From Sphaerolaimus hirsutus (lineage: Eukaryota; Nematoda; Chromadorea; Monhysterida; Sphaerolaimidae), in assembly GCA_964036195.1 (NCBI GenBank), contig OZ038450.1:1304701-1368700 (forward strand): DNA of 64,000 nucleotides, written 5' to 3'. Shown piece by piece: positions 24,299-25,320 of the stretch; the first letter of the stretch is position 1; every line of letters starts with the position of its first letter. The notes beneath the pieces are model-generated. The model had not been told where the DNA came from, searched no databases, and saw nothing but the letters and a program-made list of their open reading frames with translations. The position numbers and the translations under genes were made by a program.

Positions 24299-25320
24299 AT
24301 GAAAATGAAATCCCTTTTTGTGATTGTATTGATGCTATCCAATGCATCATGGTGCCAAATGAAAAAATGCTCAAATTGTCAAAGAAGTGCTGTCCTCCCC
24401 ACATTGGCATCATTGTTGCATAAGTGCAAAAGAGAACAGCTTGCAGAGCAGGGCATCAAAACTGCTGAATTGTGTCATGGTTTGCATAAACTGTATTGTG
24501 CTGAAGCTGATAGACACCGCAAGTCAAAGTGCCCAGGGGCCAATCCTACACCCTTTGAAGTGCCATGTTTGATGTCACATTTCAGCTTATTTTTAACTCC
24601 CAGTAAAATGTTTGGGAATACGGAACTTAACTTGTCTGTTTGTTCATCTGAAAGTTTTCAATACATACATATTACCAGAAATTTGCTTGCTTTTTGTCAG
24701 TAAATAGATAGCAGTTTACAGGGTACAGTATTATCCCCAGGTGTAAATAGAAGAGCTCACAGAGGATGTGTAACATTACGAAGACAAAGGTATGGATTTT
24801 TCAATCAATTAATAACTATTTTAGATATAAATAAGTGACATTTGCTTTAAGGATGAAGAAAAAGTACAGACAAGCCAAAATGGTCAAAGCTCAAGAAAAC
24901 AGATGGTACAAAATATGTTGGCAGCATTTTAGGAGAAACATCAGACACCACCTTAGAAGGAGTTCATCCATTCATCAGAGACGATCATTTATTAGGAAAA
25001 ATACCCAAACATGCATGAAAAAGTCAGTTTCAACATGGAGGAAGGCATTCAACGATGGCACTACACCAATCCCAAAAATGGAAGATATTTCTCTCATGTG
25101 CAGGTAGATGATTGAATTTCCCCCAAAAATTTCACTCTGAAATTTTTTTCATTATCCCCAAAAATGTCTCCCAGCGAGTGTGACAAGAGCACAGATGCTA
25201 GTTCACCAGCCTGTCAGCAACTTGGTGATGTTATCCCTGCATACTCGATGGATAACAATGGGGCAAACCCCTGCTCACAGGAGGATGATTCCATGGCTGA
25301 ATATGGTGATGAGTTTGAAG
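24299..25320 (+). CDS. Signal peptide and unrecognised Cys-rich basic pro-region of astacin gene 1 (exons A-C)
   Basis: The first exon opens with two close ATGs (24299, 24305) and a hydrophobic signal sequence, [11 protein letters not shown], cut probably near S-W-C-Q. A Cys-containing region follows with [11 protein letters not shown]. Exon B is strongly basic: a CWQHFRRN block, RRSSS, several RR pairs, then [16 protein letters not shown] and E-D-I-x-L-M-C. Exon C contains [14 protein letters not shown] and G-D-V-I-P-A-Y-S. The same order and motifs recur in gene 2, so this is a conserved part of the protein and not chance open frame. I do not recognise the domain. Its position before the catalytic domain suggests a propeptide that blocks the zinc site and is cut at basic pairs, but that is inference. 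Confidence 0.7.

Follow-up and report, generated by a model that had tools for sequence, protein, structure and literature searches.

The window, a stretch of 64,000 nucleotides from the nematode Sphaerolaimus hirsutus (G000:C1:1304701-1368700, in a genome of 348 Mb and 762 contigs), carries two astacin protease genes, here copies 1 and 2, and the first exon of a third, copy 3. All of their exons, listed here by window position, lie on the plus strand.

24299..24530, plus strand: copy 1 exon A, which encodes the signal peptide and the first Cys-rich segment; the 3′ end is a candidate only
24741..24789, plus strand: copy 1 exon B, homologous to the 3′ part of copy 2 exon A
24852..25103, plus strand: copy 1 exon C, basic segment, phase 2 at each end
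25175..25320, plus strand: copy 1 exon D, ending ...EYGDEFE, with a phase 1 donor
25541..25668, plus strand: copy 1 exon E, which completes FEGD and crosses the presumed activation region into the catalytic domain
26581..37455, plus strand: copy 1 catalytic exons through ShKT, joins worked out in part
26581-26658, plus strand: copy 1 exon F
29793-29876, plus strand: copy 1 zinc site exon
34796-34921, plus strand: copy 1 SSIMHYG exon
37354-37455, plus strand: copy 1 ShKT domain, from tblastn and open frames
51933..52225, plus strand: copy 2 exon A, fused with the B part and coding for the signal peptide and six Cys
52527..52775, plus strand: copy 2 exon C
52845..52993, plus strand: copy 2 exon D
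53950..54071, plus strand: copy 2 exon E, which completes FEGDI and continues into LWPNGVVPYA
54132..58483, plus strand: copy 2 catalytic exons through ShKT, joins worked out in part
56384-56467, plus strand: copy 2 zinc site, HELLHAMGLYHEQ
56524-56649, plus strand: copy 2 SIMHYG exon
58174-58278 and 58379-58483, plus strand: two copy 2 ShKT domains, from tblastn and open frames
62960..63101, plus strand: exon A of the third gene (copy 3), whose remaining exons lie beyond the window

Copies 1 and 2 each contain the zinc site HExxHxxGxxHExxRxDRD and a SIMHY Met-turn, and the concatenated catalytic exons of copy 2 match the Pfam Astacin domain (PF01400) with E 3.5e-34. The original prediction held that the same coding exons precede the catalytic domain in both genes, with shared order, phases and motifs. 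The order is indeed common to copies 1 and 2, as are the phases of the C-to-D (phase 2) and D-to-E (phase 1) junctions and the motifs RRSSS and WRKAF..G.TPIPK, together with one more; the proposed motif L-P-x-L-S-x-L-L-x-K-C has no exact fit in copy 1. The likeness claimed for exons A–C stands for exon C and fails for exon A, since the single exon A of copy 2 corresponds to A plus B of copy 1. The further exon A placed at 62960 is real and opens the third gene, the next exon of which starts at about 64089, just past the window end.

For the A-to-B junction of copy 1 there are two donor candidates, at 24531 (GC) and 24603 (GTAAAA), neither of which is GT in both copy 1 and copy 5, its closest paralogue. 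Across this junction (window 24530-24741; L029 for copy 5), the two copies have no good shared GT donor, and a split Cys codon would require AGT/GC in copy 1 and AGT/GT in copy 5; one or other of them could be impaired here. In copies 3 and 4 (L009 and L013), the exon A donor, GTGAGA/GTAAGA, lies in sequence that matches the KTAK-coding stretch of the copies lacking this intron, which implies gain or loss of an intron at this place.

The window also holds repeats. A dispersed repeat of GGCGCC-type palindromic units occurs at 27514-28360, 32830-32930, 49860-50800 and 63390-63570, and is partly tandem, with periods of 16 and 74, at 49892-50793. At 43527-48596, past the last clear ShKT exon of copy 1 and ahead of copy 2, an array with periods of 116, 145 and 466 bases is followed by a G-rich minisatellite with a unit of about 27 bases. 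On the minus strand at 30633-31334, within a copy 1 intron, a 233-codon open frame with a Gln-rich end has a weak RT_RNaseH match (E 0.14, below cut-off).

Beyond the window, the upstream exons recur as a unit. This module is found at 8 loci of the 348 Mb genome with the same exon set each time (A, C and D at 8 of 8). Contig C1 carries a tandem group of four and a further one at C1:1876k; C2, C3 and the small contig C742 have a single locus each. Exon C gave 8 genome matches (E 5.6e-53 to 2.6e-22, 10 candidates scored) and exon D likewise 8 (E 3.5e-31 to 7.0e-14), all far beyond chance. Of the 11 rows for exon A, 10 belong to the 8 module loci; the eleventh, at C3:9369199, was rejected (E 1.58, one stop). 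Astacin exons follow downstream on the same strand at 7 of the 8 loci, with the catalytic exons of the C2 locus about 45 kb away, 30 kb of it unread. The eighth locus, copy 7, is on C742, a contig of 25 kb that ends soon after exon E. Near that contig end its exon E is frame-shifted, which points to a damaged copy, a haplotig or an assembly error; we left copy 7 out of the alignment, the divergence comparison and the FEGD count below. ShKT domains lie downstream in copies 1–5 (5 of 8 loci); the sequence retrieved around copies 6, 7 and 8 gave no ShKT match.

Exons resembling D were also sought with a regular expression run on 47 records that overlap in part (350,235 bases), which returned 11 distinct patterns: the 8 exons D, one in a shorter astacin gene, L019, described below, and two that appear unrelated, one 3′ of the zinc-site exon of L006 and one, in L011, on the strand opposite the tandem genes. 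A D-like blast match, 7.5 kb upstream of copy 8, was taken as chance; the open frame around it resembles, by eye, a retroelement polymerase. Astacin-exon matches number at least 137 in the genome as a whole, with 150 out of 222 candidates scored. Two more arrays of astacin exons lie at C6:20.37-20.56 Mb and C6:6.26-6.45 Mb; L005, in these further C6 arrays, has FQGD, and the 58-60 residues printed ahead of that motif are free of Cys.

Exon D of the window copies ends ...GA(C/T)GAGTTTGAAG in phase 1, and its splice to exon E reads DEFEGDMKF in copy 1 and DEFEGDIIL in copy 2. FEGD is present in 6 of the 7 modelled copies and FEED, with the Asp kept, in the other, copy 3; splice sites are consistent at C/D in 8 of 8 copies and at D/E in all 7 modelled. 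In astacin zymogens, the motif F-E/Q-G-D-I sets its Asp on the catalytic zinc, according to the available portions of PMC9629494 and PMC9848320, and it is this canonical zinc-blocking pro-motif that the predicted D/E join rebuilds. The contrast that the original prediction drew with aspartate-switch propeptides is thereby lost: the earlier reading ended at exon D, so that FEGD, which spans D and E, went unseen, and reading exon by exon easily overlooks a switch motif that an intron interrupts. Given FEGD or FEED at this join in the modelled copies, the switch itself is predicted to be ordinary, and exons A–D to be an N-terminal extension added onto an aspartate-switch propeptide of the usual kind, not its replacement.

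Counted from the end of the presumed signal (19 residues) to the EYGD/ECSND part, the module spans 196–205 residues, with 12 Cys in every one of the 8 copies but copy 1, which has 13, and 33–49 Lys plus Arg against 14–23 Asp plus Glu; for these counts, as for the alignment and the divergence comparison, copies 1 and 5 were entered with an arbitrary A-to-B join. The description of a Cys-rich, basic pro-region with astacin exons downstream is thus borne out. The 7-row alignment has eleven invariant Cys columns and two invariant Trp, copies 1 and 5 have their first Cys a few residues out of register, and the invariant residues are scattered along the whole of exons C and D. These conserved cysteines suggest that the module may be a folded domain. 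Ratios of dN to dS, computed from Nei–Gojobori counts with our own script as point estimates without a significance test, are 0.09–0.38 for exons C+D in all but one of 8 pairs, the exception being pair 3/4 at 0.78. Six of the 8 pairs give 0.14–0.56 for exon A; pair 3/4 gives 0.81 there, and pair 6/8 a value of 1.44 that rests on very few changes. Exon E allowed a ratio to be computed for 5 of 7 pairs, with values of 0.24–0.80. Most of the pairwise estimates suggest purifying selection on the module, with the apparent constraint clearest for exons C and D.

Cleavage at Arg pairs, proposed for this region, is not a conserved feature: the pair is found as RRSS or RRSP in 6 of 8 copies and replaced by TRSS in 2, and the strict furin motif R-x-[KR]-R occurs inside the module in 2 of 8. 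The boundary between exons A and C reads RRKR, of furin type, in copies 3 and 4 only, RRQR (R-x-x-R) in copies 1 and 5, TRHR/TRHS in copies 6 and 8, and VRKRK in copies 2 and 7. Elsewhere, an Arg followed by nine residues and then a conserved Trp is seen in copies 4 (RAR/VGTMWTPILW), 6 and 8 (HR/AGG..IPTLW), and Arg at this spacing is absent from copies 1, 2, 3 and 5. The spacing presumably matches that of crayfish astacin, and by analogy the activation cut in copies 4, 6 and 8 may fall at this Arg, nine residues short of the Trp.

The module had been called unrecognised, and so it proved in Pfam and in PDB sequences. Pfam returned nothing over the curated cut-off (best E 0.011, in one member) for four exon or exon-pair proteins, 7 of the 8 spliced members and one composite, and PDB sequences gave no match (best 0.59 with a single protein, 7.2 with a profile); the C+D queries of the exon-pair Pfam scan and of the single-protein PDB search had Arg for Ser at the C/D join. 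The module would thus be one without a sequence match in these two collections, a claim about sequence and not about fold. Exon A also found nothing in a phage collection, which says little about an animal gene. An internal duplication, the first six Cys against the last six, was rejected (hhalign probability 0.1–0.2%), as were Stanniocalcin and DUF19 as identities, neither of which appears in any Pfam list for the module; DUF19 is a 12-Cys nematode domain.

A shorter relative may show what the extension was added to. In the region G000:C1:2229230-2233054, the astacin gene L019 has a 3-Cys exon (CDAGDDKYC...NVC...EYNPRLFQ; CDAGDDKYCDELTEKILEGGENVCAPEHDLTAAKGEYNPRLFQ) that can be joined in phase 1 to GDIQ to give FQGD, with a signal-like open frame about 0.5 kb upstream. 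Neither exon A nor exon C was found there by tblastn, which covered 3.6 kb upstream of its E exon. In a profile comparison, D+E of the module genes matched L019 with E 1.5e-4 and a probability of 51%; D alone reached only 1.2%, so that kinship of L019 with D+E is suggestive, not proven. If the relation is right, D+E would be the older short pro-region, and A–C an added part with 9 of the 12 Cys.

Several observations argue that exons A–D and the astacin exons form one gene. No stop after exon C is common to all copies, the read-through extending for 1 to 114 codons, and only the recent pair of copies 6 and 8 is seen to share its post-C stop. The C-to-D introns measure 64–71 bases in 7 of 8 copies and 76 in the other, and these lengths, with the lack of a common stop, are as expected of internal exons. 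Module and protease have also diverged in step: identity matrices for the module and for catalytic exons F, G and H correlate with r 0.87, a value equalled or exceeded by 6 of 5040 label permutations across 7 copies. Together with the 8 co-linear loci, these results make a single gene, judged from sequence, far more likely than neighbouring genes, and the suggestion that A–C belong to separate genes, which the original prediction had named as its own refutation, looks unlikely. In its specific form, a small secreted-protein gene that lies upstream of the astacin and was duplicated along with it, we find this scarcely credible: exon A of copy 2 reads to a stop at 52278 and could close a short protein, and the A-to-B junction of copy 1 is ambiguous, but the eight loci are co-linear, the exon phases are compatible and the D/E join rebuilds FEGD. 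We regard as very improbable, too, that some known helical Cys-rich family, the GDNF-receptor/GAS1 domain for example, includes the module of this gene as a divergent member. By eye, the series ...YC..x..G.TPIP...LLC.EC...PAC...NPC resembles what we take to be the Cys pattern of GFRA1 domain 3. However, hhalign of the extension profile against that domain gave a probability of 0.2% (a weak test, with one sequence and no family profile), GFRA1 is absent from the list of the PDB profile search, the Pfam scans gave no PF02351 match for the module, and the genome itself has none over the cut-off.

For a single gene, the order in sequence is a signal-like N terminus, a basic 12-Cys module of about 200 residues, FEGD(I/M) where D is spliced to E, and the astacin catalytic domain. 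We propose, with confidence evenly divided for and against, that A–D make up the N-terminal portion of an astacin zymogen that is secreted and combines aspartate-switch latency with a disulfide-rich cationic tether. As in known astacin zymogens, the Asp of FEGD would sit on the catalytic zinc and keep the enzyme latent, and a cut just upstream of the mature N terminus would free it. More tentatively, the extra module may be a separate disulfide-bonded cationic domain with a role other than latency, left behind once the protease is activated; until then it might conceivably hold the zymogen on anionic partners such as matrix glycans, mucus or secretory-granule content. Heparin-binding strings (XBBXBX/XBBBXXBX) occur at least once in 6 of 8 modules, at differing positions, and are missing from copies 6 and 8; this lack of conservation counts against a tether. 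A module without any partner, acting as an intramolecular chaperone or folding aid or as an extra steric gate on activation, with its charge packed against the protease, is unlikely but deserves serious consideration: module and protease diverge in step, both are present at 7 of 8 loci, and the module stands N-terminal to the switch. Against this, L019 appears to manage with a short pro-region, and solved astacin propeptides are described, in the available portion of PMC9848320, as essentially unstructured. That the pro-region is in addition the precursor of one or two small cationic Cys-rich peptides would accord with the six Cys on each side of the basic A/C boundary and with RRKR or RRQR at that boundary in copies 3 and 4 and copies 1 and 5, respectively; we consider it distinctly improbable, since no one convertase motif is kept there and invariant residues run throughout C and D. 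The boldest reading, a new disulfide-rich secreted fold between signal peptide and switch, in a precursor with two outputs, a cationic module (matrix or granule anchor, or bioactive peptide) and a ShKT protease, locked until activation, strikes us as improbable.

Aspartate-switch propeptides of the M12A family (crayfish astacin, meprin beta and Limulus LAST) likewise place an FXGDI-type motif immediately ahead of the catalytic domain, and M12A astacins have the same presumed activation cut near W.xG.(V/I)PY; the present genes differ in carrying about 200 more residues, 12 Cys and a high basic charge. The BMP1/tolloid prodomain has a binding function of its own, and the likeness here is in the notion that a pro-region may serve for more than blocking zinc, with no sequence relation claimed. 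The long pro-region had been taken as a departure from the usual short ones, but a pro-region of such length is not new: the available portion of PMC9848320 already describes astacin pro-regions of 34–486 residues, a range that takes in the present length, with little in common beyond FXGDI, and the unstructured propeptides of solved structure cited above set the 12-Cys module apart. What would be new is the conserved 12-Cys part, and in the searches made of open PMC papers no title or abstract opening described such an astacin pro module. Present at 8 loci, with C+D dN/dS below 0.4 in 7 of 8 pairs, it would be a clear case of a partly folded pro-region, which would probably have a second task, and the set of paralogues makes the function of the module testable. 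The overall layout, an astacin catalytic domain with C-terminal ShKT, is shared with cnidarian ShKT-astacins, namely Hydra HAS-7 (PMC8191133) and HMP1 and HMP2 (PMC9848320), whose pro-domain is described as variable in the available portions of these two sources.
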